Shown: in pieces, positions 6,961 to 63,170 of the stretch | How positions within the stretch are numbered: the first letter of the stretch is position 1 | How the letters are laid out: each line of letters starts with the position of its first letter | Assembly (NCBI RefSeq): GCF_017104565.1 | Contig: NZ_JAAGPD010000001.1 | Coordinates: 744,001-808,000, forward strand | DNA length: 64,000 bases | Reading direction: 5' to 3' | Origin: Paraburkholderia sp. Tr-20389 | GTDB lineage: Bacteria > Pseudomonadota > Gammaproteobacteria > Burkholderiales > Burkholderiaceae | The notes under the pieces: generated by a model | Databases searched by the model: none | Told to the model about the DNA's origin: nothing | What the model saw: only the letters and a program-made list of their open reading frames with translations | Position numbers and translations under genes: made by a program

Positions 6961-9498
6961 ATGAATGCCAGCCAGGACAGACAGATCGATACGACCGACA
7001 CCGCCGCCCTGCTCAATCGCGAGCGCTCGACGAATGCGCGTTTGAGAAAGCTGATTGACGCGCATTCCAGAATCGCCGCCGCGAAGCTGGATCTCGACCG
7101 CTTCCTGTCGCTCGTCACCGACGCGCTGCTCGAACTGGTGCCCGCCGCGCATGCGTCCGTGGTCGAATGGGTCGATGGCGAGGACATGGTATATCGCGCG
7201 TGCAGCGGCACCATCGCGCATCATGTCGGCTTGCGCCTCAAGCGCGACGGCAGTCTGTCGGGACTGTGCTCGGTTGAAAAGCATCTGCTGTACAGCGTCG
7301 ATACGGCGAACGATACGCGCGTCGATGCGGCCGCATGCAGGCGCGTGGGCGCGACGTCGATGATCGTCGCCCCGCTGCTCTATCAGTCCGAAGTGGCAGG
7401 CGTGGTGAAGCTGATGGCGGGCAGCCCCGGCGCATTTTCGAACGAGGACATCGAGACGCTCGAACGCATCACGTCGCTCGTCGCGTCGGGCATGGCGCAT
7501 CAGCGCGTGTTCGCGGAGAACCGCGCGCTGATCGAGCAGAACACCATCACCATCGCGCGGCTGCGCACCGAGATCAGCCTGCGCGAAGCTGCGGACAGCA
7601 AGCTCGAAGCGTCGCTGCGCCGCCGCCGTCTGGTGCTCGACACGACGCACGATGCGTTCGTGTGCACCGACGCGGACGGCATCATCATCGAATGGAACGA
7701 TGCCGCGACGCGCACCTTCGGCTACGCGCGCGATGCCGTGATGGGACGGCCGATGCTGGACGTGTTGGTCCCCGCGCGCTGCAAGGCGCGCTATGCCGAA
7801 CTCGACGTGTTCAGGATCACGCCGGAACCGAACGCCGATGTGCCCTCCAACCGCAGCCGCACGGAACTGATCGCGCAGCGCATCGACGGCAACGAGTTTC
7901 CTGCGGAACTGTCCGTGTGCCCCGTGCACTTCGACGGACACATCGAACTCGCCTACTTCATACGCGACGTGACCGAGCGCTTCAGCGCACGAGAACTCGA
8001 CAAGCGCTTTCGCGTGCTCGTCGACGCGATCAAGGACTATGCGATCACGATGCTCGACCCGCACGGCCACATCACCACGTGGAGCGCGGGATCGACCCAG
8101 GTGATGGGCTACGCGCCAGACGAAGTGCTCGGCCAGTCGGCCGCGCTCTTCTACACGCCTGAAGACGTCGCAGTGGGCAGGCCGAAACGCGATCTCGAAC
8201 TCGCCGCGCGCGAAGGCCGCATCGAAACGGAAGAGTGGCGCGTGCGCAAGAACGGCACGATCTTCTGGGCGAACATCATCACGACCGCGCTGCGCGATCC
8301 GAACGGCGCGCTGCAGGGCTTTGCGAAGATCACGCGCGACATGTCGCGGCGCCGGCGTCTCGAAGAACTCGAAGCATCGAGCCAGCGCATGAGCCAGTTC
8401 CTCGCGCTGCTCGGACACGAACTGCGCAATCCGCTCGCACCGCTGCGCAACGCCGTCAGCATGCTGCAGCTGAAGTCCGCCGATCACGATACCTTCGTGC
8501 CCGAGCATGAGCTGATCGACCGGCAACTGTCGCATCTCACGCGGCTCGTCGACGATCTGCTCGACGCCGGACGCGTGACGCTCGGGCGCGTGCAGATCGA
8601 GCCGAAGCCCGTGTCGATGCAGGCCATCGCGCAACTGAGCATCGAAGGCAGCGCGCCGCTTCTGGCGGCGCGCGATCAGACGCTCGACGTGGTGATGCCC
8701 GACACGCCGATGTATATCGAAGGCGATCTCACGCGCATGGTGCAGGTCGTGCAGAATCTGCTGAACAACGCGTCGAAATTCAGTCCGCCGGGCGCATCGA
8801 TCGGCTTGCAGGTGTTTCGTTCAGGGCGGCTGCTGGCGATACGCATCCACGATACAGGGCGCGGCATCGACCCCGATGCGATCGACGCGATCTTCAACCT
8901 GTTCGTGCAGGAAACGCCGACGGAAGAACAGGCCGACAAGAGCGGGCTCGGGATCGGGCTGACGCTCGCACGCGCAATCGTCGATCTGCATGGCGGCCAC
9001 ATCGACGCGCATAGCGAAGGACGCGGCAAAGGCAGCGTGTTCACCGTGTGGCTGCCGGAATGCAGCCACGCGATCGCCGACGAAGGCCCGCACGACGAAG
9101 CGCCCGCGCCCGCGCAGCCTGTCGATCTGAAAGTGATGGTCGTCGACGACAACATCGATTCCGCCGACAGCATGGCGACGCTCGTGCAGGTGCTCGGCCA
9201 CGAAGCGCACGCTGTGTACGACGGGGCGGCCGCGATCGAACTCGCTCACACGTTGCAGCCGCATCTCGTGTTGCTCGATCTGTCGATGCCGAAGATGACA
9301 GGCTTCGACGCGTTGCCGCATATCCGCAAGGCGCTCGCGGCGCCGGGCGCCGTGATCGCCGCGATGACCGGGCTCGGCACCAGCGAAGACCGCGCGCGGA
9401 CGGAAGCCGCGGGGTTCGACCTGCACTTGACCAAGCCCGTCGACCTGCCCGATCTGGAAGGCGTGTTGCAGATCGCCGTCGCACACGTGCGCGACTAG
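6961..9498 (+). CDS. Soluble hybrid sensor histidine kinase (GAF-PAS-PAS-HisKA-HATPase-REC)
   Basis: Hybrid two-component kinase of about 845 residues with no membrane segment, so it should sense a cytoplasmic signal. Order of domains: GAF (about 35-190), PAS (about 225-340), second PAS (about 350-465), HisKA with phospho-acceptor H486 in LGHELRNP, HATPase with N box (NNASKFSPPG) and G boxes (DTGRGID, GLGIGL), and a C-terminal receiver with phospho-acceptor D773 in LLDLSMP. ATG 6961 has only a distant GGAG; in-frame starts at 6874 and 6910 are possible but add composition unlike a domain. No response-regulator gene is adjacent, so output may go through an unlinked partner. Confidence 0.9.
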   Translation: MNASQDRQIDTTDTAALLNRERSTNARLRKLIDAHSRIAAAKLDLDRFLSLVTDALLELVPAAHASVVEWVDGEDMVYRACSGTIAHHVGLRLKRDGSLSGLCSVEKHLLYSVDTANDTRVDAAACRRVGATSMIVAPLLYQSEVAGVVKLMAGSPGAFSNEDIETLERITSLVASGMAHQRVFAENRALIEQNTITIARLRTEISLREAADSKLEASLRRRRLVLDTTHDAFVCTDADGIIIEWNDAATRTFGYARDAVMGRPMLDVLVPARCKARYAELDVFRITPEPNADVPSNRSRTELIAQRIDGNEFPAELSVCPVHFDGHIELAYFIRDVTERFSARELDKRFRVLVDAIKDYAITMLDPHGHITTWSAGSTQVMGYAPDEVLGQSAALFYTPEDVAVGRPKRDLELAAREGRIETEEWRVRKNGTIFWANIITTALRDPNGALQGFAKITRDMSRRRRLEELEASSQRMSQFLALLGHELRNPLAPLRNAVSMLQLKSADHDTFVPEHELIDRQLSHLTRLVDDLLDAGRVTLGRVQIEPKPVSMQAIAQLSIEGSAPLLAARDQTLDVVMPDTPMYIEGDLTRMVQVVQNLLNNASKFSPPGASIGLQVFRSGRLLAIRIHDTGRGIDPDAIDAIFNLFVQETPTEEQADKSGLGIGLTLARAIVDLHGGHIDAHSEGRGKGSVFTVWLPECSHAIADEGPHDEAPAPAQPVDLKVMVVDDNIDSADSMATLVQVLGHEAHAVYDGAAAIELAHTLQPHLVLLDLSMPKMTGFDALPHIRKALAAPGAVIAAMTGLGTSEDRARTEAAGFDLHLTKPVDLPDLEGVLQIAVAHVRD

Positions 9499-9603
9499 CC
9501 GTACGCGGGCGCCCTCGCCGCTCGCTTACCGATTCTTCCGAACGCTCAAGAAGCGCACTCCACGGACGTTACCGAAGACAGTACTTTCAAGCGAGGATCG
9601 AAC

Positions 9604-9852
9604 GTGGAAACAGTCAACCCTGAACTCATTGCGCGGCTCGTGAGGATCAACCCTGTCGTCATCGTCAACGGCGAGACGTCGCGCTCGCTGCGCTATCACG
9701 GCAAGCGCAATGTGCGCGCGCTGATGGGCTTTCTCGGCATGTATCGCGACATGCGCGCGCTCGTCTACAGCCATTCGGCAAGCGGCCGTCAGATGTGGCT
9801 CGACGTGCAGACCGGCCGCGAGTCGCAATTGCCCGTGCTGCTGCCTAACTGA
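9604..9852 (+). CDS. Small hypothetical protein, GTG start
   Basis: A protein of 82 residues that I do not recognise. It begins at a GTG preceded by GCGAGGATC. The sequence is compact and mixed in charge, with no signal peptide or membrane helix, and has good codon bias for this genome. It follows the hybrid kinase by about 105 bases on the same strand and may be co-transcribed, but there is no hint of function. Confidence 0.6.
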   Translation: METVNPELIARLVRINPVVIVNGETSRSLRYHGKRNVRALMGFLGMYRDMRALVYSHSASGRQMWLDVQTGRESQLPVLLPN

Positions 9853-9907
9853 CTGACGGCGTGACTGACGGCGGCGAAGCTGCCGCCAGTCCCATTGCTG
9901 GTTCTGC

Positions 9908-10333
9908 TCAGCTCGCGGCACCGGGTTCCCGCGCTGAACATCCGCGCAGAGCGCCTGCCGTCTGCATCTGCCCAACCCGCCGTAACGCTATGCTGACGAA
10001 GATGAGGGCGCTAGCCGCCATCTCGACCCGCCCGAACCGCTCGCCGGCAACCCAGCCAATCAACAGTGCGACGACAGGCGCAAGATAGTTCGCCGGCGGC
10101 AGGAAACGGCGAACGTAGATGTATGAAAGGCCCAGGATCATCGAGCTTGCGACCAGCCAGCAGTCACCGGCCAGATCGATCGTGCCGTCCGCCGCTGCCC
10201 ACGGGCGAGCAATCAGAACGATTCCGGCGAAGCCGACGGCAACACCCACAATACGTCTAACCAGGGAAGTTACTGAGTTAGACGGCTCGAACGGCGACGA
10301 AATCCGGCGCCGGCCAGCCTGCTGGCGACGCAT
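9908..10333 (-). pseudogene. Remnant of an EamA/DMT-family transporter
   Basis: The minus-strand frame carries two blocks of an EamA (drug/metabolite) transporter: one reading VGVAVGFAGIVLIARPW followed by a helix ending GLSYIYVRRF, then directly PVVALLIGWVAGE, which normally lies about 60-75 residues further on. The intervening helices are missing, the N-terminal half is absent, and the tail after the last helix is unrelated. I read this as a gene decayed by deletion. The rest of the stretch 9853-10566 shows no other recognisable gene. Confidence 0.6.
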
Positions 10334-10566
10334 AACTTAATGTAATAGCGCCACGAAAATAAAGCGCATTGACGCTGTTTTCCACGCCACCAATACTCAA
10401 GCCACAACACAGGCGGGCGTATCGTGCGAAGGCACTATCAGAAGAACGAGCCAGGCAACGGCGTCCCGACTTCAGGTTGAATCCGCGATTATGACAATGC
10501 ACGTTGCGCAGTTTCGCGCGGCTTCGCAGCCGGGTAGGCGCAAGGCGTTTCAAGAGATTTGATTCC

Positions 10567-11700
10567 ATGAACTCGGTAGAAAGAATGTTCGACCCTGCGC
10601 CGGAAGCCGAAGACAGACTGTCCAACGTCAGCACCTGGGAAAGCGGCGGCCGGCTCTGGCCGAGCAGCGAGCAGCAGAGCTTGACGTGTTGCCGCGTCGT
10701 CGACGAAACGCACGACGTCAAGACGTTTGAATTCCGCGTGGGCGACGGCTCGCCAGTCCGCTTCGAACCCGGTCAATTCATGACCGTGCAGGCGGATGTG
10801 CAAGGTCAAGCTGTCGAGCGCTGCTACACCATTTCTTCGCCCCCGACGCGCCCGTTTCTGCTGTCCATCACCGTCAAACGTGTGCCGGGCGGCACCATGT
10901 CCAACTGGCTTCACGACAACATGAAGGTCGGAGCCGGGTTGCGCGCGTATGGTCCGTCGGGCAGCTTTACAGCGACGGCGGCTCCCGCGAAGAAATCGCT
11001 CTACCTGTCCGCGGGTTCAGGCGTGACGCCGCTGATGTCGATGACACGTGCAAGCATCGACCTCGGCCTCGATCGCGACATCGTGTTCGTTCACAGCGCG
11101 AGAACGCCCGCCGATATCGTCTTCCGCAAAGAACTGGAGCGGCTCACGCAACTTTCACCGCGCCTTCGCACATTCTTCCTTTGCGAAGGCATCGGCGATG
11201 AAGAAGGCTGGCCCGCGCCCACAGGTCGACTCAGTCTCGAACTCCTGTCCGGATGGGTGCCTGACTATATCGAACGCGAAGTATTCACATGCGGCCCCGC
11301 CGGCTACATGAGCGCAGTGCGCGCACTGCTTCATCAAGGTGGACATGCGCCCGATCGTTATCACCAGGAAAGCTTCGACTTCGCCGCCGGCTCGGTGCCG
11401 GAGGCGCCCGCTGCACCGGAGAACGCCGCCACTCAGGAGACCTTCACCGTGAAGCTCTCGCGCTCTTCGAAGACGTTCACGATGAACGCCTCGGAGACTG
11501 TGCTCTCGGCAGCCAGAAAAGCCGGCGTCGCGATCCCGTCGTCTTGCAGCCAGGGCATTTGCGGAACCTGCAAGACCAAAGTGCTTGAAGGCACCGTCGA
11601 CATGAATCACAAAGGCGGCATCCGGGAGAGAGAGGTTCAGAAGGGACTTCGCCTGCTCTGCTGCAGCCGGCCGACATCGGACCTTGTGCTGGAACTCTGA
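10567..11700 (+). CDS. GbcB-like ferredoxin reductase (FAD/NAD plus plant-type 2Fe-2S)
   Basis: Electron-transfer flavoprotein of 377 residues with an FAD-binding domain (RCYTIS at 85-90), an NAD-binding domain (AGSGVTPLMSM near 149-159; TCGPAGYM near 241-248) and a C-terminal plant-type [2Fe-2S] domain with C327, C332, C335 and C365 or C366. This layout matches the reductase subunit of Rieske demethylases such as glycine-betaine GbcB. The matching oxygenase (GbcA-like) is not in the window. ATG 10567 was preferred over 10504 because the extra residues are basic and atypical. It leads a run of four same-strand genes that appear devoted to a methylated sulfonium or ammonium compound. Confidence 0.85.
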   Translation: MNSVERMFDPAPEAEDRLSNVSTWESGGRLWPSSEQQSLTCCRVVDETHDVKTFEFRVGDGSPVRFEPGQFMTVQADVQGQAVERCYTISSPPTRPFLLSITVKRVPGGTMSNWLHDNMKVGAGLRAYGPSGSFTATAAPAKKSLYLSAGSGVTPLMSMTRASIDLGLDRDIVFVHSARTPADIVFRKELERLTQLSPRLRTFFLCEGIGDEEGWPAPTGRLSLELLSGWVPDYIEREVFTCGPAGYMSAVRALLHQGGHAPDRYHQESFDFAAGSVPEAPAAPENAATQETFTVKLSRSSKTFTMNASETVLSAARKAGVAIPSSCSQGICGTCKTKVLEGTVDMNHKGGIREREVQKGLRLLCCSRPTSDLVLEL

Positions 11701-11828
11701 AACGCAGGCGCGGCTTCCGGTCAACCGGACCGCGATGGAACGCATGCTCCGGCGCCAACTTGCGCCCGAGCATGCCAGCCCGTTTCACTTCGTAGAACCC
11801 CACACAACAACGCCCCGGAGCGATAGAA

Positions 11829-13058
11829 ATGGCCGACGTACAGCTGTTTGATGCAGATTGCGCAGTCGAGCTTGGTGGAAGAGAACGGATCGTGCGGGAC
11901 GTGAGGGCGTATCGACTCGCTTGTGTGCAAGAGCAACTGCGCAAACACAAATGTCCCGCAATTCTGCTGTATGACCCGGTGAACATCCGCTATGCGACCG
12001 ACACCTCGAACATGCAGGTCTGGGCCGGCCGCAATCCTGCGCGATATGTGATGGTTTTCGCCGACGGTCGTATCGTCGCGTGGGAGTTCCACAGCAGCGA
12101 ACACGTATGGGACGGATTGAATCTCGACGTCGAACTTCGTGGCGCCGTCAGTTGGACTTTCTTCAATGCCGGCCATGAAGCCGAGCGGCGCGCTGAAACA
12201 TGGGGCGCGGAGATCGTCGACGTGTTCCGCCAGCATGCGCCCGGCGATCGCCTGCTGGCGGTCGACCGGCTCGACCCGTTCGGTACGGCGTACCTGGAAA
12301 AGCACGGCATCGCGTTGCTGGACGGACAGGCCTTGATGGAGACCGCTCGGCTCATCAAGTCGTCCGGTGAACTCGTGTTGATCGGCGAGTCGTTGCGCAC
12401 GGCCGAAAAAGGCATCGAGCGCATGCGGCGCGAACTGCGTCCTGGCGTGACCGAGAACGACATCTGGGCCAACCTGCATTACGAAAACATCCGCAACGGC
12501 GGCGAGTGGATCGAAACGCGGCTGCTCGCGTCTGGAGACCGGACGAATCCGTGGATGCACGAATGCTCTTCACGCGTGCTGCAAGACGGCGACCTGCTGG
12601 CATTCGATACCGACATGGTCGGGCCCAACGGCTATTGTTCGGACATCTCGCGCACATGGCTCGTCGGTGACGGCCGCCCGTCGGATGAGCAGCGCAAGCT
12701 GTACGAGCTGGCCTACTCGCAGGTCCATTTCAACATGGACCTCCTGCGTCCCGGCATGACGTTCCGCGAGTTCTCGGAAAAGGCATGGAAGATCCCGGAA
12801 CCGTTCATCAAAAACAGATACTGCTGCCTGGCTCACGGCATCGGCATGGTCGACGAATATCCGTCCATCGCGCACCAGGTCGATTGGGGCAGCGCAGGTT
12901 ACGACGGCATGTTCGAAGCGGGCATGACCGTGTGCGTCGAAAGCTACATCGGCGCAGAGGGCGGCACGCAGGGCGTCAAGCTCGAGCAACAGGTCGTTCT
13001 CACGGAGAGCGGTTGTGTGTCGCTGACAGATTGTAGTTTCGAATCCGACTGGCTGTGA
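11829..13058 (+). CDS. dddP: DddP-type M24-family DMSP lyase candidate
   Basis: A 409-residue 'pita-bread' M24 protein. M24 metal ligands are all present: D260, D272, H336, E371 and E386. From memory, the DddP DMSP lyase of Ruegeria lacuscaerulensis uses D295, D307, H371, E406 and E421; the spacings (12, 64, 35, 15) are identical, and its Y366 corresponds to Y331 here. Two further DddP-like blocks are visible: NIRYATDTSNMQVW (52-65) and GGEWIETRLLASG (224-236) followed by RTNPW. DddP cleaves dimethylsulfoniopropionate to dimethyl sulfide and acrylate. GGAG precedes the ATG. A creatinase- or Xaa-Pro-peptidase-like activity remains possible, but the DddP-specific blocks make it less likely. Confidence 0.75.
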   Translation: MADVQLFDADCAVELGGRERIVRDVRAYRLACVQEQLRKHKCPAILLYDPVNIRYATDTSNMQVWAGRNPARYVMVFADGRIVAWEFHSSEHVWDGLNLDVELRGAVSWTFFNAGHEAERRAETWGAEIVDVFRQHAPGDRLLAVDRLDPFGTAYLEKHGIALLDGQALMETARLIKSSGELVLIGESLRTAEKGIERMRRELRPGVTENDIWANLHYENIRNGGEWIETRLLASGDRTNPWMHECSSRVLQDGDLLAFDTDMVGPNGYCSDISRTWLVGDGRPSDEQRKLYELAYSQVHFNMDLLRPGMTFREFSEKAWKIPEPFIKNRYCCLAHGIGMVDEYPSIAHQVDWGSAGYDGMFEAGMTVCVESYIGAEGGTQGVKLEQQVVLTESGCVSLTDCSFESDWL

Positions 13059-13110
13059 GTGACAGCGCGAAAGATCACCTTCCAGTCTTTGCATAACATC
13101 AGGAGACAGC

Positions 13111-14313
13111 ATGTCAGGCAATCGTGGAGTGGTTTATGTGGCCCCCGGGAAAGTCGAAGTGCGCAGCATCGCCTTTCCCGAACTGGTCGACCCGTCGGGT
13201 CGCAAAGCGAATCACGGCGTCATCCTTAGAGTGGTCGCGACGAACATTTGCGGCTCCGACCAGCACATGGTGCGCGGCCGAACGACGGCGCCGGCCGGAC
13301 TCGTCCTCGGTCACGAAATCACCGGCGAAGTAATCGAAGTCGGCTCGGACGTCCTCACGCTGAAGAAAGGCGACCTCGTGTCGGTTCCGTTCAACGTGGC
13401 GTGCGGCCGGTGCCCCATGTGCAAGGCGCAAAACACCGGCGTCTGTCTCAACGTGAATCCCGCGCGTGCAGGCGGCGCCTATGGCTATGTCGACATGGGC
13501 GGCTGGATCGGCGGTCAGGCCGAGTACGTGATGGTGCCGTACGCGGACTTCAATCTGTTGAAGTTTCCGGATCGCGACCGCGCGATGGAGAAGATACGCG
13601 ATCTCACCTGTCTGTCGGACATTCTGCCGACCGGCTATCACGGTGCCGTCACTGCGGGAGTCGGGCCCGGTTCGACCGTCTATGTCGCTGGCGCAGGTCC
13701 CGTCGGCCTGGCGGCTGCGGCATCCGCGAGACTGCTCGGGGCGGCCGTCACCATTGTCGGCGACCTGAATCCGGTGCGGCTCGAGCATGCTCGTCGGGTC
13801 GGATTCGAAACGGTCGATCTCTCAGAAGATGCCTCGCTCGCCGAACAGATTGCCGATCTGCTCGGCGAAGCGGAAGTGGACTGCGCGATCGACTGTGTCG
13901 GCTTCGAAGCGCGCGGTCATGGTCACTCCGGTTCGCAGGTCGAGGCCCCGGCCACCGTCCTGAACTCGCTGATGGAAATCACGCGGGCCGCCGGCAAGAT
14001 CGGCATTCCGGGCCTCTATGTGACCGACGACCCCGGCGCGACCGATGCCGCCGCAAAGCACGGCAGCCTCTCAGTGCGCTTCGGCCTTGGCTGGGCGAAG
14101 TCGCACTCGTTCTTCACCGGTCAAACGCCCGTGATGAAATACAACAAGAATCTGATGCAGGCTATTCTGTGGGACCGGCTGAACATCGCCGAAGTCGTCA
14201 ACGTAACCGTCATCGAACTCAACCAGGCGCCCAGCGGCTACGCGGAATTCGATTCGGGCGTACCCAAGAAGTTTGTCATCGATCCGCACGGCAGTCTGAA
14301 AGCGGCGGCCTGA
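13111..14313 (+). CDS. fdhA: Glutathione-independent formaldehyde dehydrogenase
   Basis: Zinc-dependent medium-chain dehydrogenase of 400 residues, colinear over its whole length with Pseudomonas putida FdhA. Catalytic zinc ligands C47 and H68 and the structural zinc cysteines C98, C101, C104 and C112 are visible, with a Rossmann motif GAGPVGLAA near 195. It oxidises free formaldehyde (and formaldehyde plus alcohol by dismutation) with tightly bound NAD. A strong AGGAGA precedes the ATG. It follows the DddP-like gene by about 52 bases. Formaldehyde is the product of oxidative demethylation, which fits the reductase at the head of this gene run. Confidence 0.93.
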   Translation: MSGNRGVVYVAPGKVEVRSIAFPELVDPSGRKANHGVILRVVATNICGSDQHMVRGRTTAPAGLVLGHEITGEVIEVGSDVLTLKKGDLVSVPFNVACGRCPMCKAQNTGVCLNVNPARAGGAYGYVDMGGWIGGQAEYVMVPYADFNLLKFPDRDRAMEKIRDLTCLSDILPTGYHGAVTAGVGPGSTVYVAGAGPVGLAAAASARLLGAAVTIVGDLNPVRLEHARRVGFETVDLSEDASLAEQIADLLGEAEVDCAIDCVGFEARGHGHSGSQVEAPATVLNSLMEITRAAGKIGIPGLYVTDDPGATDAAAKHGSLSVRFGLGWAKSHSFFTGQTPVMKYNKNLMQAILWDRLNIAEVVNVTVIELNQAPSGYAEFDSGVPKKFVIDPHGSLKAAA

Positions 14314-14371
14314 CACAAGTTGCCGTAGCGACGAGAAAAGTTGCTTGCGTGTCTCCGAGGTGAGCTTTGCG

Positions 14372-14397
14372 GCCGGTCGAAAGACCGGCTTCTTTTT
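14372..14397 (+). terminator. Rho-independent terminator after fdhA
   Basis: A 7-base-pair stem GCCGGTC/GACCGGC (14372-14378 with 14383-14389) is closed by a GAAA tetraloop and followed by TTCTTTTT. It lies 58 bases after the fdhA stop and only 12 bases before the cupin gene start, so it should separate or attenuate expression of the two. Confidence 0.85.
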
Positions 14398-14409
14398 AGA
14401 GCGCACGAC

Positions 14410-15000
14410 ATGACTAATCGCCCCGAACACATTCAGACCTTCATTCGAATCACGGAGAGTCTCTTCCAGTCCGAAAAGCTCCCTTCAACTGGGAGGCAGG
14501 TCGCGTCCCGAGTCTTCGAGCGGCTTCGTACCCCGTCGGATGACGGCAAGCGACACAGCGCCCGCTATCCCGCATGCGACTGGATCGACGCGGCGCTGGC
14601 ACCCGTCCTGGACGAGCCGACTCAAATCGGCGCAGCCGCACGTGCAATCAAATCGCTCGAGCCGGTCTTGGGGTGGTCGCGCCGGACGTCTGGCTTACAC
14701 GGCAGTGAAAACTATGTCGAGGGACACGTGCACGGCATGATTTGCGGGCCAGGCGGCGCGGAAAGCCGCTACGACGTGCAACTCGGATTCTCGGTGATGG
14801 TTCCCAACGTCAGATACCCGGACCATAGCCATCCGCCGGAAGAGGCGTACGTGCTATTCACTGCCGGGGAGTTCCGTCAGAAAGACGGCGACTGGTTCGA
14901 CCCTGGCATTGGCGGCGGCATACACAATCCGCCCGGCAGCCCGCACGCGATGCGATCCGGCCCGGCGCCTTTCCTCGCCATCTGGTGCCTTCTGGTTTGA
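14410..15000 (+). CDS. Cupin DMSP-lyase-family protein (DddQ/DddL-like)
   Basis: A 196-residue single-domain protein with a C-terminal cupin. Motif 1 reads HSHPPEEAYVLF (H139, H141, E145, Y147) and motif 2 contains the downstream histidine H179 in GSPHAM; this H/H/E/Y plus H set is the signature of the DddL/Q/W group, where the tyrosine is the likely base. The length matches DddQ. It would cleave DMSP to dimethyl sulfide and acrylate, the same reaction predicted for the M24 protein two genes upstream. The start is the only Met before the domain, has a weak ribosome site, and sits just after a terminator. Many soil homologues are uncharacterised, so a related substrate is possible. Confidence 0.72.
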   Translation: MTNRPEHIQTFIRITESLFQSEKLPSTGRQVASRVFERLRTPSDDGKRHSARYPACDWIDAALAPVLDEPTQIGAAARAIKSLEPVLGWSRRTSGLHGSENYVEGHVHGMICGPGGAESRYDVQLGFSVMVPNVRYPDHSHPPEEAYVLFTAGEFRQKDGDWFDPGIGGGIHNPPGSPHAMRSGPAPFLAIWCLLV

Positions 15001-15024
15001 GCGAGACGCGCGGCAAACCCGGCG

Positions 15025-15354
15025 CTAAACCGAAGCGAACACCACAGCGCCCTTGTTGCCGACCTGAGTGAACGTTCGCACGAACCGGTAGGCGCCGCCG
15101 TTGACAGTCAGTTCGTTGAATCCGGACTGCGTCGACGCCAGAATGGCATCGGCGAGTTCATTCTGAATCGAGCCACATTTTTTCAGCTCGTCGTCCGACG
15201 CGCTGACGTCCCCGAGATACAGAGAACTGGTCCCGCTCTGACTTCTGACCATCACGAGATGTCCGCCTTTATCCAAGGCGAGTTCCAGGTATTCCGACAA
15301 AGTCGCCATCGCTTCGATGTTCGACACGGCACGGCGTTCAGACGTTGAGCCCAT
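15025..15354 (-). CDS. Hypothetical protein
   Basis: A 109-residue protein of unknown function. The start at 15354 follows a GGGGG run; the frame extends to 15525 but the extra part is Cys/Arg-rich and unlikely to be translated. No membrane segment or signal peptide is seen, and the last 40 residues look like a beta-rich fold. It is convergent with the cupin gene, 24 bases away, and divergent from the MFS transporter. Confidence 0.55.
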   Translation of the reverse strand: MGSTSERRAVSNIEAMATLSEYLELALDKGGHLVMVRSQSGTSSLYLGDVSASDDELKKCGSIQNELADAILASTQSGFNELTVNGGAYRFVRTFTQVGNKGAVVFASV

Positions 15355-15549
15355 GTAGCCCCCGATAATTTTTCCCACTGACAGCCATCGTACGCCAGAT
15401 GGCTGCCCGCCACACCTGTGAGATGTCCGTGCGTTCGAACGAAAACGATTAACTTCATAAACGCAAATCCGACCACCCACGGCACGCATATCCGGCATAC
15501 ATAGGCGAAAACACGTACTAGCCAAGCAGCCTCAAACCTTCTATTCTTA

Positions 15550-15563
15550 GAAAAACGTTTTCC
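15550..15563 (+). promoter_or_regulatory. LacI-type operator upstream of the MFS transporter
   Basis: The 14-mer GAAAAACGTTTTCC differs at one position from the perfect palindrome in front of the uronate dehydrogenase gene (18170-18183). A TATTCT lies just upstream at 15542-15547, the same relative layout as in the udh promoter. The remainder of the 330-base gap 15355-15684 is comparatively AT-rich and shows no gene. Confidence 0.65.
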
Positions 15564-15684
15564 AAACGTGACGGAAACATGCAAGCGCGCCGCCAGCCGG
15601 GCGCGACGCATCCCCGCCCCGGCGCTCGTCGCCGGCCATGAAAAGACCGCGGCGCGACGAGCGATGCCGCGAACGGAGACTTAC

Positions 15685-16974
15685 ATGCAATCTGCCGTCG
15701 TCGGCGTCGTACGCGCCGCCAGCCGCTTCCGCTGGACCGTCTGTGCGCTGCTTTTCTTCGCGACCGTCATCAACTACATGGACCGGCAGATCCTCGGTCT
15801 GCTCGCGCCGCTGCTCCAGCATGAGATCGGCTGGACGCAGGTGCAGTACGGCCGCATCGTGATCGCGTTCTCCGCGTTCTATGCAATCGGCCTGCTGTGC
15901 TTCGGACGCATCGTCGACTGGCTCGGCACGCGGATTTCATACGCGGGCGCGATGCTCATCTGGAGCATCGCCGCGATGCTGCACGCGGCCGTCGGCTCGG
16001 TGATGGGCTTCGCGGCCGTGCGCGCGCTGCTCGGCATCGGCGAAGGCGGCAACTTCCCCGCTGCCATCAAGACCACGGCCGAATGGTTCCCGCGCCGCGA
16101 GCGCGCGCTCGCGACGGGCATCTTCAACTCCGGCGCCAACATCGGCGCGGTGTTCGCACCCGCGATCATTCCGGCGATTGCCGTGATGTACGGGTGGCGC
16201 GCGGCGTTCGTCATCATCGGCGCGATCGGCATCGTGTGGCTGGCCGTGTGGCTCGCGGTCTATCGCCCCGCTGACCGCAGCGCGCAAGACGAAGCGTTCG
16301 ACGAACCGCGCGACGAAGTCGAAGCGCTCGACGCCCGCCACGCCAACGCCCGCGCGCCGGGCTGGGGCGAACTGATCAAGAAGCGCGAGACGTGGGCGTT
16401 CCTGATCGGCAAGTTTCTGACCGACCCGGTCTGGTGGTTCTACCTGTTCTGGCTGCCGAAGTGGCTCAACGAATCGCGCGGCATGGACATGCAGCACATC
16501 GGCTTGCCGCTCGTCATCATCTACGCGATCACGACGGTCGGCAGCATCGGCGGCGGCTGGATTTCGTCGACGCTGCTGCGCAAGGGCTGGACCGTGAACG
16601 CTGCGCGCAAGACAGCGATGCTGATCTGCGCGTGCTGCGTGCTGCCCATCGCGTTCGTGTCGCAAGCGGAAAACCTGTGGGTCGCCGTCGGCATCGTCGG
16701 CCTTGCAGCGGCTGCGCACCAGGGCTGGTCGGCGAATCTGTTCACCACGGCATCCGACCTCTTCCCGCGCCGCGCACTCGGCGCTGTAGTGGGCATCGGC
16801 GGGATGGCGGGCTCGATCGGCGGCGTGCTGTTCTCCGAAGTGATCGGCCAGGTGCTGCAACGCACGGGACACTACTGGGTGCTGTTCGCGATCGGCGCAC
16901 TCGCCTATCTGCTCGCGCTCGCGATCATGCACGTGCTGACGCCGCGCATGGCGCCCGCGAAGCTCGATGCGTAA
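15685..16974 (+). CDS. MFS transporter, hexuronate/anion:cation symporter type
   Basis: Twelve-helix major facilitator of 429 residues, closest in features to the ACS family (ExuT/GudP). The N-terminal NYMDRQILGLLAPLL and the loop-2/3 RIVDWLGTR motif are present. ATG 15685 is preceded by GGAGAC; the in-frame ATGs at 15568 and 15664 would add a hydrophilic leader and lack a better site. It probably brings galacturonate or glucuronate into the cell for the uronate dehydrogenase encoded at 18206, with which it shares an operator. Confidence 0.88.
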   Translation: MQSAVVGVVRAASRFRWTVCALLFFATVINYMDRQILGLLAPLLQHEIGWTQVQYGRIVIAFSAFYAIGLLCFGRIVDWLGTRISYAGAMLIWSIAAMLHAAVGSVMGFAAVRALLGIGEGGNFPAAIKTTAEWFPRRERALATGIFNSGANIGAVFAPAIIPAIAVMYGWRAAFVIIGAIGIVWLAVWLAVYRPADRSAQDEAFDEPRDEVEALDARHANARAPGWGELIKKRETWAFLIGKFLTDPVWWFYLFWLPKWLNESRGMDMQHIGLPLVIIYAITTVGSIGGGWISSTLLRKGWTVNAARKTAMLICACCVLPIAFVSQAENLWVAVGIVGLAAAAHQGWSANLFTTASDLFPRRALGAVVGIGGMAGSIGGVLFSEVIGQVLQRTGHYWVLFAIGALAYLLALAIMHVLTPRMAPAKLDA

Positions 16975-17035
16975 TCAGGCATCGCGCGCCGCCTCGCGCG
17001 GCGCGCTCTCCGAAGTACAGAGCATGAGCGAGGCT

Positions 17036-18028
17036 TCAGCCGCAGGCAGCCGTCGATTCGCGCACGATCAGCCGCGGCTCGAACATCGAATGCTCGGCCT
17101 CGCCGTGGCCCGCCAGTGCGTCGATGAGCTTCTGCATCGCCAGTTCGCCCATCTTCTCGCTCTGGATATCGACGGTAGTCAAGGCAGGCGCGGCGTACTC
17201 GCCATACGGCACGTTGTCGACGCCCGTCACGGAAACGTCGCGCGGCAGCTTGAAGCCGAGCGATGCCGCTTCTTTCATGAAGCCGAGCGCGATCAGGTCG
17301 TTGTAGCAGATCACCGCCTGCGGCCGCTGCGGCCCGAGCATCACGCGCGAACAGGCCTGCTCGCCGGCTTGCGCGGTCGGCGCGTGGGCATCGTGCACGT
17401 CGAGCGCGAGGCCCACTTCGTCGAGACATTCGCGCACGCCGCGAATACGCTCGTCGTTGATGCGCGCCTGGCCGAAGCCGAGATAAGCGATATGCCGGTG
17501 TCCGAGATTCAGCAGATGACGCGCGAGCATGTACGTCGCGAGCCGGTTGTCGATGCCGACGCTCGGAATCGGCAGGCCCGGACTGCGCCGCAACAGCACG
17601 AGCGGCTTGTTGAGGTCGAGCATCCACTGCGATTCTTCGTCGGGCATGCGCGAGCTGATGATGAGGCCGTCGACGCGCTGCGCGAGCGCCTCGATCAGCG
17701 AACGCTCGCGCGCCTGGTTCTCTTCCGTATCGACGAGCAGCAGCGTGTAGTCGTGCTGAAGTGCAACGCGATTCGCGCCCTTCACGACGTTCGTGAAGTG
17801 CGGATTGCTGATGTCGAGAATCGCCAGCCCGATGGTGCGCGTGCGGCCCGTGATCATCGAGCGCGCGAGCGGGTTCGAACGATAGCCGAGCCGCTCGATC
17901 GCCTCCTTGAGCCGCGCTTCGACGGCAGGAGAAAAGCGCTGCGCGCCGTTGATGTATTTGGACACCGTGGCGACGGACACGCCCGCCGCGACGGCCACGT
18001 CGCGAATCGTCGGGGAAACTTTTTTCAT
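17036..18028 (-). CDS. LacI-family repressor of the hexuronate module
   Basis: LacI-family regulator of 330 residues: HTH TIRDVAVAAGVSVATVSKYI at about 7-26, hinge NPLARSM, then a sugar-binding-like effector domain. The start ATG at 18028 lacks a purine-rich ribosome site because the upstream bases read ACCCTCCGG, so translation may be weak. The gene lies between the transporter and udh and is divergent from udh. Operator-like dyads precede udh, the transporter and, less perfectly, its own start, pointing to repression of all three. A hexuronate or its first metabolite is the likely inducer by context. Confidence 0.88.
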   Translation of the reverse strand: MKKVSPTIRDVAVAAGVSVATVSKYINGAQRFSPAVEARLKEAIERLGYRSNPLARSMITGRTRTIGLAILDISNPHFTNVVKGANRVALQHDYTLLLVDTEENQARERSLIEALAQRVDGLIISSRMPDEESQWMLDLNKPLVLLRRSPGLPIPSVGIDNRLATYMLARHLLNLGHRHIAYLGFGQARINDERIRGVRECLDEVGLALDVHDAHAPTAQAGEQACSRVMLGPQRPQAVICYNDLIALGFMKEAASLGFKLPRDVSVTGVDNVPYGEYAAPALTTVDIQSEKMGELAMQKLIDALAGHGEAEHSMFEPRLIVRESTAACG

Positions 18029-18033
18029 CCGGA

Positions 18034-18047
18034 GGGTAACGTTTTCG
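18034..18047 (-). promoter_or_regulatory. Degenerate operator in the lacI-type gene leader
   Basis: GGGTAACGTTTTCG matches the GGAAAACGTTTTCC palindrome at 11 of 14 positions and lies 6-19 bases upstream of the repressor's start codon, covering the place of the ribosome site. It suggests weak autoregulation. Confidence 0.45.
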
Positions 18048-18138
18048 TTTGCCTTGCACGATTGTCGCAGAAAATGCGTCGAGCGAAAGCATTGCAATAG
18101 TACGAGACCGCTTTACCAGTCGAATTGAACCCCGGCAA

Positions 18139-18183
18139 TTGACGCGTTCCCCGCCTCACCTTTATAGTTGGAAAACGTTTTCC
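18139..18183 (+). promoter_or_regulatory. udh promoter with overlapping perfect operator
   Basis: A sigma-70 promoter reads TTGACG (18139-18144), 18-base spacer, TATAGT (18163-18168). Directly after the -10, at the expected transcription start, is the perfect 14-base palindrome GGAAAACGTTTTCC (18170-18183), the typical position for repression by a LacI-family protein. Confidence 0.8.
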
Positions 18184-18205
18184 TGAATTTATCGAAGGAT
18201 CATCC

Positions 18206-19039
18206 ATGAACGAGACATCTTCCGTGCCGCGCAAGCCGTTCCGCCGTCTTCTGCTGACGGGCGCGGGCGGCAATCTGGGCCGCCAGCTGCGCGACGCGCT
18301 GGCCGCATGGGCCGACATCGTGCGCGTGAGCGACATCGTCGCCGTGAGCGCGGCGGCTGCGCACGAAGAAGCAAGCGTCGTCGATCTGGCGGACCGCGAG
18401 GCCGTGATGCACATGGTCGAAGGCGTGGACGCGATCGTGCATCTGGGCGGCATTTCGATCGACGCACCGTTCGACGATCTGATCGAAGCGAACATTCGCG
18501 GCACGTACAACCTGTACGAAGCCGCGCGCAAGCATGGCGTGAAGCGCGTCGTGTTCGCCAGCTCGAATCACGCGATCGGCTTTCATCCCGTCACGGAAGT
18601 GCTCGACACGGATGCGCCCCAGCGTCCCGACAGCCTGTACGGGGTGACGAAGTGCTTCGGCGAGTCGCTGTCGCGCTACTACTTCGATCGCTTCGGCATC
18701 GAGACGGTGTGTCTGCGAATTGGTTCGTCGTTCGAAGAACCGAAGAATCCGCGCATGCTCGTCACGTATCTGAGCTATCGCGACTTCATCGAACTGGTGC
18801 GCTGCTCGCTGTTCACGAACCGTGTCGGCCATGCTGTGGTTTATGGCGCGTCGGACAATCCCGTCAAGTGGTGGGACAACACGAAAGCGGGCTTTCTCGG
18901 CTTCCGTCCGCGCGACAGCTCGGTGCAGTTCGCGGAACGCTTCCCCGTCACCGCGCCGACGCCCGAATACGATGATCCGGCGCAACGCTTCCAGGGCGGC
19001 GCATTCGTGCTCGGCGAACCGATGGAACGCAAGGCCTGA
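18206..19039 (+). CDS. udh: Uronate dehydrogenase
   Basis: NAD-dependent dehydrogenase of 277 residues that oxidises galacturonate or glucuronate to the aldarolactone, the first step of the oxidative hexuronate pathway. It aligns by eye along its length with Pseudomonas syringae Udh: Rossmann motif TGAGGNLG (18-25), SSNHAIGF (119-126), catalytic YGVTK (Y145, K149) and the late block YGASDN followed by WWDN. GAAGGA precedes the ATG. The start lies 22 bases after a strong operator. Later pathway enzymes (lactone hydrolysis, aldarate dehydratase) are not in the window. Confidence 0.93.
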   Translation: MNETSSVPRKPFRRLLLTGAGGNLGRQLRDALAAWADIVRVSDIVAVSAAAAHEEASVVDLADREAVMHMVEGVDAIVHLGGISIDAPFDDLIEANIRGTYNLYEAARKHGVKRVVFASSNHAIGFHPVTEVLDTDAPQRPDSLYGVTKCFGESLSRYYFDRFGIETVCLRIGSSFEEPKNPRMLVTYLSYRDFIELVRCSLFTNRVGHAVVYGASDNPVKWWDNTKAGFLGFRPRDSSVQFAERFPVTAPTPEYDDPAQRFQGGAFVLGEPMERKA

Positions 19040-19237
19040 AGCACTTTCGGGCAGATAGAGGGTGCCGCGCAAGGCGGCATTCGGCAGTCAAATGGGCGCG
19101 CGGTGCAGGCACGGATCTGCATCGCGCGTCAACCTCGGATCGGCTGGTCTGATTTATTTTTCGCAGCCGCAATGCATTGCAGGTGAAGTTTCGCAGCGTG
19201 TACCATGTCACCAGGGCAAAACCCTTGGAGGATGATC

Positions 19238-19543
19238 ATGGACAGGCATGCAGTGCATTACAGGCGCCACGTCATCATCCCACTTGCGTCCGTGGGCGCT
19301 CGCGGATACGCGGCCAGCGTGTTCGTCACCGGCCCGAGCGGGCGGCGTAAAGCCTTTGGCATCCTCGGTTACTTTTCTTCCGAGGAAGAGGCGATCGAGT
19401 ACGCGACGTCATGCGCAAAAGCCCGCATCGAGGGCAATCTGATGCCGGGTTTGCCGCGCAAGCTCAGTGCGATGCGGCACTGGTTCCTGCGCCACGGCAT
19501 CCGCCGTCAAAACGGGTTGTCCGCAGCCAATCCCTGGGATTGA
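19238..19543 (+). CDS. Hypothetical protein
   Basis: A 101-residue basic protein that I recognise only as the kind of short protein common in Burkholderiaceae. The start at 19238 follows GGAGG by 6 bases; the nearer ATG at 19232 abuts the ribosome site. It has a beta-rich front half (VIIPLASVGARGYAASVFV) then FSSEEEAIEYA, resembling small stress-related DUF proteins. No signal peptide. It stands alone between udh and the repeat-containing membrane protein. Confidence 0.65.
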   Translation: MDRHAVHYRRHVIIPLASVGARGYAASVFVTGPSGRRKAFGILGYFSSEEEAIEYATSCAKARIEGNLMPGLPRKLSAMRHWFLRHGIRRQNGLSAANPWD

Positions 19544-19834
19544 TCGGACAATTTATCGTGCAATTAGCGCGTCATTTTTGACGCGCGTTCTCGACACGCA
19601 AACTAAACCGAAGCGTCCGACAATCAGAGAAGCTTCGACACGCCGCGTTGCATATGCATGGCACGCGTGGCGTTCATCGCCGCCCTGGCCCGCGTCGGGG
19701 ACTCGATTCTCTGGCTGTCGTCCGCCTGTTTTCCACCTTTCAGGCCTGCCAATTGCTGGTTTTTGTCTGAATAAAAGACGCGAGCAATCGCTTAAACTGG
19801 CCGGCTCACGTCATTCGAAACACTGTCAGTACGT

Positions 19835-20689
19835 ATGATGACCACCCGAAAGATATTGATGATTCTCGCCGGGCTCGTGCTCGGCGCGGCATTGACCACC
19901 TACCTCATGGTGCTTCAGGCGGATCGCCGCGCAACGGCCGAAGCCACAGCAGGCATGGATGAGACCGCGAGCCCTTCCGCCGCCGATTCGCGCGTCAGCG
20001 AAAATCATGTGACGGAAGGCAGCATCGGCTCGTCAACGCCGCCGCGCCCGCCCACGAAGAATGCAGCCGTCGCGCCGCAGCCGGTCATGCCTGCGCCCGT
20101 TCCGGCACCTGCACCGATGGCTGCCGCACCGGCAGCGCCCGCTCCGGCACCTGCGCCGAGCACCGCTATTACGGAGCAGGCACAACCGCAGCCGCAACCA
20201 GCGCCCGCGCCGTCGGCGGCCGTCGCTTCCGTGAACGTACCCAACGCAGCCACTCCGAAGGTCGTGCCGGCGCTGCGCGCGCAGCGTGGCCGCGACAACC
20301 TGGATCGCCGCTACTCGTCTCAGGGCGCGACACCGGAAACGGAAGAACTCGTGCGCCAGTCGTCCAAGCTCGATCCCTTGCTTCCGCCGCCCGCTTCGGC
20401 CGCGCCACCTAGCCTCAACAGCGCGAACATGGATCAGCACAACACGTATCGCGGTTCGTACCACTCCGGCGCTACGCAGACGGATCAGCTCGTGCACGAT
20501 TCGGCCAAGCTCGATCCTTCGCTGCCGCCGCCCGATATGGCCGCAGTACGCGCCGCGACGGAGAAGCAGCAACGCAGCACGACGAAGCCCGTTACGAATA
20601 CGAACACGAATCCCGTTGCCGCCGCGCTGACCGACCAGCTCGTGCGCGACTCGGCCAAGCTCGATCCGTCGCTTCCGCCGCCGAAGTAA
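19835..20689 (+). CDS. Membrane-anchored Pro/Ala-rich protein with three 18-residue repeats
   Basis: A 284-residue protein with an N-terminal hydrophobic anchor (about 6-26) and the rest predicted outside the cytoplasm. A Pro/Ala/Gln-rich stretch (about 68-130) resembles a periplasm-spanning linker. The C-terminal part contains three copies of an 18-residue motif of the form T-[DE]-[QE]-LV-x-x-S-[AS]-KLDP-x-LPPP at 169-186, 216-233 and 266-283, spaced 47 and 50 residues apart. I do not recognise the family. The ribosome site before 19835 is weak; 19838 is an equally good start. A strong terminator follows. Confidence 0.7.
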   Translation: MMTTRKILMILAGLVLGAALTTYLMVLQADRRATAEATAGMDETASPSAADSRVSENHVTEGSIGSSTPPRPPTKNAAVAPQPVMPAPVPAPAPMAAAPAAPAPAPAPSTAITEQAQPQPQPAPAPSAAVASVNVPNAATPKVVPALRAQRGRDNLDRRYSSQGATPETEELVRQSSKLDPLLPPPASAAPPSLNSANMDQHNTYRGSYHSGATQTDQLVHDSAKLDPSLPPPDMAAVRAATEKQQRSTTKPVTNTNTNPVAAALTDQLVRDSAKLDPSLPPPK

Positions 20690-49207: not shown

Positions 49208-49960
49208 CTATACCTTGCGCAAGTCGACAACCGACCGCCACCCGCTGCGCGCCGGATCGAGCAGACCGACGAAGCGCTCGCCGTCCGGCAATCCCGGGCC
49301 GCCCAGCAGCACGGCGGGCATCGCGTCCGATCCTTCCGTCCACCACGCACCCGATCCCGGCGCCGCGTAGCGGGCGAGCAACGCGGAGAAGCAGTCGGAC
49401 GCGCCGTCAGCCTGCTCCGCTTCAATCGCTTCAATCGCTTCATTCGCTTCTTGCCCAGGCACCACCTGTTCCGCCGGACGAAGCCGCCACGCAGGCGCAG
49501 GTGTTTGCGCCGGCGCCGCTGTCAACGGCCCCCACGCATCGAGCTGCGCATCGAAATGCTCCAGCACGAAATCCGCGTCGAGCGTCGACAGCGCGCGCCG
49601 CGTGGCCTCGTCGTACCAGGCTTGCGCTCCGTCGAGCCAGTTCGCGACGTCGTCACGCGCAAGCGGCGCGGCGAGCGTGAACGGAAAATAGCGTCCCACC
49701 CGGTCGACACCCGGCATCAGCACACCCGCCCACGCCAACTCGCCGCACACGCCGGCGCCGAGCGCAAAACACCAGACCGGCGCATTCAGATAGACGGGGA
49801 GCCACTGTGCGCCGAACCATCGCTGCGCGTACAGCATGCCCTGCTGCAGACACGCATCCCACGGCGTGACGAATCCGGACGGCAAACGCCGCTTCACGAA
49901 GTCTCCATGCGTGCGCACCTTGCCGAAAAATCCGGGCGCCTGGGCGACGAACGCACTCAT
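49208..49960 (-). CDS. tagF: Type VI secretion-associated protein TagF
   Basis: A 250-residue cytoplasmic protein of the TagF/SciT family, recognised by the N-terminal GFFGKVRTHGDFVKRRLP and the FALGAGVCG and GRYFPFTLAAP blocks. In other bacteria TagF holds T6SS assembly in check post-translationally. Its start overlaps the tssM stop by 4 bases (ATGA), showing translational coupling. A linker of E-A-I/N repeats is encoded by a 9-base tandem repeat (49419-49451). Confidence 0.93.
   Translation of the reverse strand: MSAFVAQAPGFFGKVRTHGDFVKRRLPSGFVTPWDACLQQGMLYAQRWFGAQWLPVYLNAPVWCFALGAGVCGELAWAGVLMPGVDRVGRYFPFTLAAPLARDDVANWLDGAQAWYDEATRRALSTLDADFVLEHFDAQLDAWGPLTAAPAQTPAPAWRLRPAEQVVPGQEANEAIEAIEAEQADGASDCFSALLARYAAPGSGAWWTEGSDAMPAVLLGGPGLPDGERFVGLLDPARSGWRSVVDLRKV
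49419..49451. repeat. 9-base tandem repeat inside tagF
   Basis: CGCTTCAAT occurs at 49419-49427 and 49428-49436, followed by CGCTTCATT at 49437-49445 and a partial CGCTTC. It encodes the E-A-I/E-A-N linker of TagF; copy-number change would keep the frame. Confidence 0.8.
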
Positions 49961-53484: not shown

Positions 53485-53527
53485 GGGCATCCACCTTCGA
53501 GGTGCGTCGTACGGAGCGCGAGCGGAT

Positions 53528-54817: not shown

Positions 54818-54840
54818 GATGAGTGTCCTCGATCAATGCG

Positions 54841-56175: not shown

Positions 56176-56231
56176 TTTTTCTCGTGTCTTCTCGTGTCTT
56201 TAGCGTGGCCTGTTCCCGCGACGGGAAACGG

Positions 56232-58016: not shown

Positions 58017-58049
58017 TTGTCTCCCCGGCCCCAACGGCCAAGCATCGCG

Positions 58050-60041: not shown

Positions 60042-60042
60042 G

Positions 60043-60432: not shown

Positions 60433-60463
60433 ATGAATACTCCGTCAAACGTGCAGCGCGCAC

Positions 60464-63166: not shown

Positions 63167-63170
63167 TTTG

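Follow-up and report, generated by a model that had tools for sequence, protein, structure and literature searches.

Two DMSP-lyase-like proteins in a probable betaine-demethylation regulon of Paraburkholderia sp. Tr-20389

The window analysed here is a stretch of 64 000 nt from the 9 Mb genome of Paraburkholderia sp. Tr-20389 (contig C19, positions 744001–808000), and its subject is a cluster of four intact ORFs at 10567–15000 that encode a GbcB-type reductase, a DddP-like protein of the M24 family, a glutathione-independent formaldehyde dehydrogenase (FdhA) and a cupin of the DMSP_lyase family. The locus is real rather than a product of chance, and is better explained by a betaine-demethylation regulon than by a locus for the cleavage of dimethylsulfoniopropionate (DMSP). 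One type of promoter heads genes for a Rieske oxygenase, the reductase, the DddP-like M24 protein or the cupin across 15 genomes, and it is likely that the window carries part of a small, probably LysR-controlled regulon for the degradation of quaternary-ammonium betaines, with proline and/or hydroxyproline betaine as the likeliest substrates and with uptake of the ProXWV type. What is new here is the promoter itself, which defines a predicted small regulon. The initial annotation had drawn the four-gene cluster as it stands and had placed it in a soil or plant bacterium, which agrees with the inferred genus; it had read the locus as one of two DMSP lyases, with a betaine as the bracketed alternative, and it is this alternative that gene context and the shared promoter favour. 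Below, G-, L- and C-numbers denote genomes, loci and contigs of the Tr-20389 genome, respectively.

Promoter, regulon and proposed pathway

Approximately 70 bases 5′ of the window operon recur 5′ of Rieske, M24 and cupin genes. They comprise a LysR-type box (such boxes follow a T-N11-A rule), a conserved GAAAATAAAGCGCAT block, and −35 and −10 elements (Table 1). A search for the core pattern in 99 whole genomes, that of Tr-20389 included, returned 30 sites in 15 genomes, with none for a reversed-pattern control. Every one of the 30 lies directly upstream of a regulon gene and in the correct orientation: 18 precede Rieske genes, five reductase genes, four M24 genes, and one a cupin gene, with an EamA gene standing between promoter and cupin at the remaining two (G054 and G016). 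Nine sites fall outside all loci used to build the pattern, and each of these precedes a Rieske gene. No match occurs in 20 arbitrary control loci, or in 80 loci from a search with the DddP-clade alignment, and two are found in a plasmid region of Caballeronia grimmiae (L093). Tr-20389 itself has exactly two sites at this stringency, one at the window operon and the other at the promoter of a Rieske gene on contig C24. A generic sigma-70 scan likewise returned the window promoter as the only plus-strand match in 9850–15650, which is no evidence alone, the scan giving two matches in total against 1.1 expected.

With regard to control, a LysR gene, of the same type throughout, adjoins every one of the 18 Rieske sites. 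Of the 12 remaining sites, two (both of them amongst the four M24 sites) have such a gene as well, and at 10 none was found in the 1.5 kb upstream. Outside the searched pattern, a CAT-N11-ATG palindrome is present at 18 of the 30 sites, and in a looser form, which is that of the window, at 28.

The reductase of the window scores 338 bits against the GbcB model NF058606 (cut-off 500), and hence is a relative of GbcB; FdhA scores 749 bits against TIGR02819 (fdhA_non_GSH; cut-off 637). Both bear out the formaldehyde dehydrogenase and demethylase-type reductase of the initial annotation. Relatives of the reductase (54–80 % identical) directly follow a Rieske gene in other genomes, and several relatives carry Rieske, reductase and M24 genes in one run, but no Rieske gene of this type occurs in the 20 kb around the window reductase. 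The best match in the Tr-20389 genome is the protein on C24, which is 74 % identical to the Rieske protein of G020, scores 391 bits against the NCBIfam GbcA model (cut-off 670), and has as neighbours GlxA- and LysR-type regulators, an aldehyde dehydrogenase, DAO, DHDPS, GlyA and ProXWV. No close reductase is present in the 40 kb read around it, and the sole close paralogue of the window reductase (53 %) adjoins another Rieske gene, on C31. The C24 oxygenase gene has the one promoter copy found in this genome apart from that of the window, which makes it the likely partner in trans of the window reductase, a pairing that would resolve the problem of a reductase without an adjoining oxygenase. 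A PhyH-family oxygenase gene (L106, 17043–17924) is convergent on the C24 Rieske gene, and has a counterpart at the same place in G020 (L278, 79 % identity).

In the pathway proposed, NADH would supply electrons through the window reductase to the Rieske oxygenase of C24, and this oxygenase would take an N-methyl group off the betaine as formaldehyde; FdhA would convert this to formate, and the DAO, DHDPS-family and aldehyde dehydrogenase proteins of C24 would carry the ring product to central metabolism. The contribution of the two lyase-like proteins is put forward with less assurance. Each might hold the betaine carboxylate on metal, at a two-metal site in the M24 protein and a one-metal site in the cupin, with Asp342 (M24, the DddP base) and Tyr147 (cupin, the DddQ base) possibly abstracting the alpha proton. 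Least certain is the outcome, which could be an epimerisation or an elimination, with either an N-onium compound or a demethylated intermediate as substrate; these are suggested because, according to PMC4108388 and PMC5395565, both proposed lyase mechanisms begin with the carboxylate on metal and removal of the alpha proton. The DMSP Km values given in the second source (PMC5395565), of 14–17 mM for DddP and 22 mM for DddQ, are high enough for the wider families to include enzymes with other native substrates. Sharing their promoter type with an oxygenase that probably demethylates plant osmolytes such as proline betaine, the M24 protein and the cupin probably help to digest nitrogen osmolytes rather than, or besides, DMSP, which they may also cleave as a side reaction.

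The M24 protein and the cupin

The M24 protein matches the DddP model NF043017 at 380 bits (E 1.7 × 10−113), which is below the curated cut-off of 600 that a positive control, the Oceanisphaera DddP, passes with 626 bits. It also matches DddP entries of the PDB (4rzy and 4b28) with E-values of about 1 × 10−89 to 1 × 10−90. The five standard M24 metal ligands are present and, with residue roles taken from PMC4108388 and PMC5395565, it equals the Roseovarius nubinhibens DddP at nine of nine positions, comprising six metal ligands, Tyr366, Asp377 and the tryptophan of an NMQxW motif, the last being positioned by motif. An M24 peptidase-like protein of the same genome (L004) lacks four of the nine (Asp297, Tyr366, Asp377 and the tryptophan), and representatives of two remoter M24 clades (L079 and L059) have glycine at the Asp377 position.

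In a tree of 54 rows, a DddP clade that holds the R. nubinhibens protein (30 rows) is supported at 100/99, and the window protein groups with proteins of Paraburkholderia, Rhizobium, Terrarubrum and Pseudomonas MPC6 at 100/97. A topology that joins the latter clade to the DddP clade is rejected (p-AU 4.6 × 10−7). The R. nubinhibens protein is the only row known as characterised. The DddP clade was thinned by eight rows; fungal DddPs, L024, L026 and L027, and the long or divergent L032, L033, second Terrarubrum protein, L087, L059, L023 and L029, lie outside the tree. The Tr-20389 genome has two further DddP-like genes (47 and 48 %), both on C13. DddP-like genes at L079, L082, L085, L086, L088 and L089 lie beside a gene for a HalD-like Fe/2-oxoglutarate oxygenase, mostly with ProXWV-type genes, and divergent examples at L059, L081 and L087 occur with a GMC oxidoreductase, accompanied in L059 and L081 by an additional gene resembling, by eye, that of a betaine-binding protein.

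The cupin matches Pfam PF16867 (DMSP_lyase) at 199 bits against a cut-off of 27, has no NCBIfam match, and aligns to the DMSP lyase of PDB entry 5cu1 (E 2.3 × 10−6). A predicted model (mean pLDDT 81) returned DddQ at ranks 1–6 of a structure search. All six DddQ catalytic residues, as listed in PMC4437653, are kept (Tyr120, His123, His125, Glu129, Tyr131 and His163). The same is true of 42 of the 46 aligned rows shown, so these residues cannot separate a DMSP lyase from another enzyme. In the cupin tree, DddQ-type rows with R. nubinhibens (100/100) and DddL-like rows (100/100) form two groups, whilst the window protein falls in a third, composed of Burkholderia-group and rhizobial cupins (97/97 and 99/93); row labels in this tree are provisional, its deep branches are long, and no known DddW or DddK is amongst its rows. 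Beside one of the DddL-like genes (L201) stands an acuI-like gene. In soil bacteria and legume symbionts, cupins of this kind carry the annotation DMSP lyase, and Lei et al. in 2018 reportedly noted that the cupin family includes many members without known function. A second PF16867 cupin stands in tandem with the intact one in the betaine clusters of Rhizobium phaseoli and R. johnstonii (L090, 10364–11056, and L248). It has lost the equivalents of Tyr120, His125, Glu129, Tyr131 and His163, five of the six, and is probably a catalytically dead paralogue.

The assignment of both proteins to two DMSP-lyase families, with their active sites kept, is sound, but the proposal of two DMSP lyases is not supported, given the rejected topology for one and the third group for the other. 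Rather than two folds for one reaction and two routes to one product, the evidence favours two members of one demethylation regulon. Phylogeny, as the initial annotation had suggested for a check, places both outside the characterised lyase clades, which is the first half of the refuting condition set there, the second concerning the release of dimethyl sulfide (DMS). The DMSP-lyase reading is demoted and not discarded.

Gene context, arrangement and rival explanations

Amongst the 99 genomes, an M24 protein with 60 % identity or more to that of the window is encoded in 13 (G021 additionally has a broken fragment), 12 of these 13 also having a promoter site, and nine have a strong cupin match, one with an internal stop. 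Within the 59 genomes of the same genus, the window-type M24 gene accompanies six of nine strong cupins against 13 of 59 overall (p 0.002, uncorrected for kinship). Beyond this genus, plasmid pRphaR650d of R. phaseoli carries both protein types together with two betaine transporters, a flavin oxidoreductase, an electron-transfer flavoprotein (ETF) and three formaldehyde genes, as well as DHDPS, aldehyde dehydrogenase, DAO, 4-hydroxyproline epimerase, Rieske, reductase and putA genes. A similar cluster in Rhizobium AB2/73 has Rieske, reductase and M24 genes as one run. In these Rhizobium plasmids, flavin oxidoreductase, cupin, ETF and formaldehyde genes form another run, and the clusters carry betaine ABC transporters. 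The cupin gene is directly 3′ of the flavin oxidoreductase gene in all seven rhizobial plasmid regions examined.

Context was counted for 28 DddP-like M24 loci of several clades, the window included, and for 20 arbitrary 20 kb control loci of the same genomes. Within approximately 10 kb of the M24 genes there are Rieske (8), reductase (12), ProX (9) and DHDPS-family (8) genes, against none in 20 controls for each. Various observations weigh against a betaine regulon, or narrow it. Some of the reference proteins were taken from loci in which they were counted and, the genomes being related too, the context p-values are only a guide. Neither ProV (12/28 against 4/20) nor DAO (8/28 against 3/20) differs clearly from controls, several neighbours from which betaine is inferred score below NCBIfam cut-offs, and other M24 clades have other neighbours (the HalD-like oxygenase and GMC oxidoreductase noted above). 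Betaine-type genes lie within approximately 10 kb of five of nine other in-genus cupin loci and are missing at four. R. johnstonii 3841, from which R. leguminosarum J391 presumably derives, has the cupin, Rieske and reductase genes but no M24 gene at that place, and in the regions read of Sinorhizobium meliloti pSymB and Phyllobacterium the flavin oxidoreductase–cupin pair occurs without Rieske or M24 genes. As for the promoter, the pattern was not found in 13 plasmid regions scanned, 11 of them from outside the Burkholderia group, which confines the regulon as shown to that group. It heads the cupin in three (G020, G054 and G016) of the nine in-genus strong-cupin genomes, with no site in the cupin genomes G023, G024 and G056, and G029 lacks a site despite its window-type M24 gene. 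The window cupin stands behind a terminator-like hairpin, and a DddP-clade gene of Oceanimonas (L116) has BCCT, Rieske, aldehyde dehydrogenase and DAO genes in its vicinity. Finally, the conserved residues do not distinguish DMSP from an N-betaine. The neighbours of L116 resemble those of the Pseudomonas MPC6 cluster; a candidate promoter copy at this locus proved a false match on inspection.

The Oceanimonas locus, in joining a DddP-clade gene to Rieske and BCCT genes, also lends something to a rival view, that of a mixed onium-osmolyte regulon with the M24 protein and the cupin as functional DMSP lyases, in which DMSP would enter by a betaine transporter and be cut to DMS and acrylate, with the Rieske branch serving N-betaines. 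The kept DddP and DddQ positions and the proximity of the cupin model to DddQ structures point the same way, but both proteins lie outside the characterised clades, and this explanation is considered unlikely. The genome does encode, elsewhere, an AcuI/YhdH protein above the family cut-off, which says little because the family also passes it in two of 14 control genomes. In Puniceispirillum, acuI is upstream of dddP (PMC3338564). An acuI-like gene accompanies the M24 gene at eight of the 80 DddP-clade-search loci (one partial) and at none of the 28 Burkholderia-group loci, a difference that is not significant (Fisher p 0.11), and there is none within approximately 10 kb of the window M24 gene. 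Betaine-type genes are few at those 80 loci, many of which are on short contigs: Rieske (4), DAO (4), ProX (1) and MttB (8). Further against working lyases, PMC10686828 has R. leguminosarum J391 as library host in a screen for dimethylsulfoxonium propionate (DMSOP) lyases. A marine-type DMSP island is not supported either, on account of the trees and of the lack of acrylate genes nearby.

More doubtful again is a hydrolase function for the M24 protein, of prolidase or ectoine-hydrolase type, that would hydrolyse a conjugate to release the betaine or imino acid ahead of its demethylation. This would suit the M24 fold, its five standard ligands and the hydroxyproline-type neighbours of relatives; set against it are the DddP-specific extra ligand Asp297, along with Tyr366 and Asp377, that L004 lacks, and the DddP of Ruegeria lacuscaerulensis, for which PMC5395565 reports no measurable Val-Pro peptidase activity.

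In a last and very improbable explanation, the module merely landed beside an unrelated cupin, to which the arrangement of the genes lends some colour. The hairpin after fdhA (stem at 14371–14390, then a T tail) separates the module from the cupin gene. Terminator-like matches in the stretch are no more than chance (five against 5.7 expected), so the evidence for it is conservation of the stem after fdhA in three other aligned module copies (L054, L066 and L067, with a weaker T run in L067). As this conserved hairpin separates fdhA from the cupin gene, transcription of all four as a single simple unit is improbable, and cupin expression in this strain may be reduced, the kept fdhA hairpin now preceding the gene. 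At the same syntenic place G020 has promoter and cupin only, without the other three genes, its module being about 90 kb away. Window positions 10306–10398 and 14402–15000 match this place, and 10317–14397 match a three-gene module of G005, hairpin included. The copy in G020 and a second one in G005 are matched as well, in two pieces. The simplest account would be that recombination at the shared promoter placed the module between promoter and cupin; alternatively, the module may have been lost in G020. Against mere juxtaposition, the same regulon promoter serves the cupin in G020 and, behind EamA, in G054 and G016, which contradicts that explanation as to regulation. Moreover, both proteins share one cluster in two annotated Rhizobium plasmids, and the in-genus excess of window-type M24 genes amongst strong-cupin genomes given above argues likewise.

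Around the cluster, the flanks look ordinary, with a histidine-kinase-like gene (read by eye) on the left and an MFS transporter, a LacI regulator and an epimerase-family dehydrogenase on the right. The protein at L061 to which the EamA remnant of Table 1 is similar matches Pfam EamA. An Rfam scan of 8000–20000 gave nothing at gathering score. Read by eye, the protein starts within 49957–63998 suggest a type VI secretion locus, with resemblances to IcmF, VgrG and ClpV.

Table 1. Features in and beside the four-gene cluster (window coordinates)
Feature	Position	Strand	Basis
EamA transporter gene remnant	9908..10249	−	58 % identity to L061 EamA protein over part
Regulon promoter	10328..10397	+	Pattern at 30 sites in 15/99 genomes, all upstream of regulon genes
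LysR-type box GCAT-N11-ATAG	10330–10348	+	Part of regulon promoter
−35 TTGACG	10369–10374	+	Followed by 17-base spacer
−10 AATACT	10392–10397	+	Part of regulon promoter
Reductase of Rieske betaine demethylase, GbcB relative (predicted)	10567..11700	+	Pfam FAD_binding_6, NAD_binding_1, Fer2
DddP-like M24 protein, betaine-associated clade	11829..13058	+	Profile, PDB, residues, tree
FdhA, glutathione-independent formaldehyde dehydrogenase	13111..14313	+	TIGR02819, 749 bits
Terminator-like hairpin after fdhA	14371..14396	+	8-pair stem, GAAA loop, T tail; fold z −3.3
DMSP_lyase-family (PF16867) cupin, betaine-associated clade	14410..15000	+	Pfam, PDB, tree, predicted model

Comparison with known systems

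It is conceivable, and offered tentatively, that a wide terrestrial branch of the DddP and DddQ folds has its native place in nitrogen-betaine catabolism, as two unrelated metal enzymes that take the alpha proton of an N-onium carboxylate and are co-regulated with Rieske demethylation. If so, the marine DMSP lyases would be offshoots of, or siblings to, betaine enzymes, a kinship that would go some way to account for Km values in the millimolar range, and surveys in which homologues are counted from 40 % identity upwards would score some betaine enzymes as dddP, although the window M24 protein itself stands at 37.8 % to the R. nubinhibens DddP. Two enzyme groups would also gain a concrete, testable function. 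No association of a Rieske/betaine regulon with DMSP_lyase cupins or with DddP-like proteins came up in the literature searched, from which most subscription papers were absent (passages of PMC4108388, PMC4437653, PMC10686828, PMC5395565, PMC12239276, PMC11337228, PMC3338564, PMC3017554, PMC11306096 and PMC11306105).

In comparison to the DddP of R. nubinhibens, Ruegeria lacuscaerulensis and Roseobacter denitrificans, the window M24 protein has the same fold, metal ligands, Tyr366, Asp377 and NMQxW tryptophan. It differs in identity (45 % to the Oceanisphaera DddP, and the lower value above for R. nubinhibens), in its separate clade, in a shorter N-terminus, and in sharing promoter and context with a Rieske demethylase. 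The cupin similarly shares PF16867 with DddQ, DddL, DddW and DddK, and the residues of DddQ, its nearest structure. Nevertheless, it is only 16–22 % identical to the best DddQ structures and, unlike DddQ and DddL, belongs to a separate clade with the rhizobial cupins that follow a flavin oxidoreductase.

With GbcAB, the system has in common a Rieske oxygenase, a FAD/2Fe-2S reductase and betaine transporters nearby, an architecture of oxygenase plus reductase that is presumably also that of stachydrine demethylases of the Stc2 type. Here, however, neither subunit reaches its respective cut-off (GbcA or GbcB), C31 carries a second Rieske-reductase pair that is nearer to GbcA, and the oxygenase and reductase are, unlike those of GbcAB, on different contigs. 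A parallel in gene content is the proline- and hydroxyproline-betaine pathway of Paracoccus and Rhodobacter, said to have been described by Kumar et al. in 2014, which likewise has genes for a betaine transporter, a demethylase, DAO, a DHDPS-family protein and an aldehyde dehydrogenase. For the epimerase of that pathway, a mandelate-racemase-family protein (L112) was used as a stand-in and has only weak matches in the Tr-20389 genome (best E 1.6 × 10−17, 29 %). The idea that the M24 protein or the cupin substitutes for a hydroxyproline epimerase is weakened by the eight proline-racemase-family genes of this genome. Where the Paracoccus and Rhodobacter pathway has its epimerase, the system described here instead has the M24 and cupin genes.

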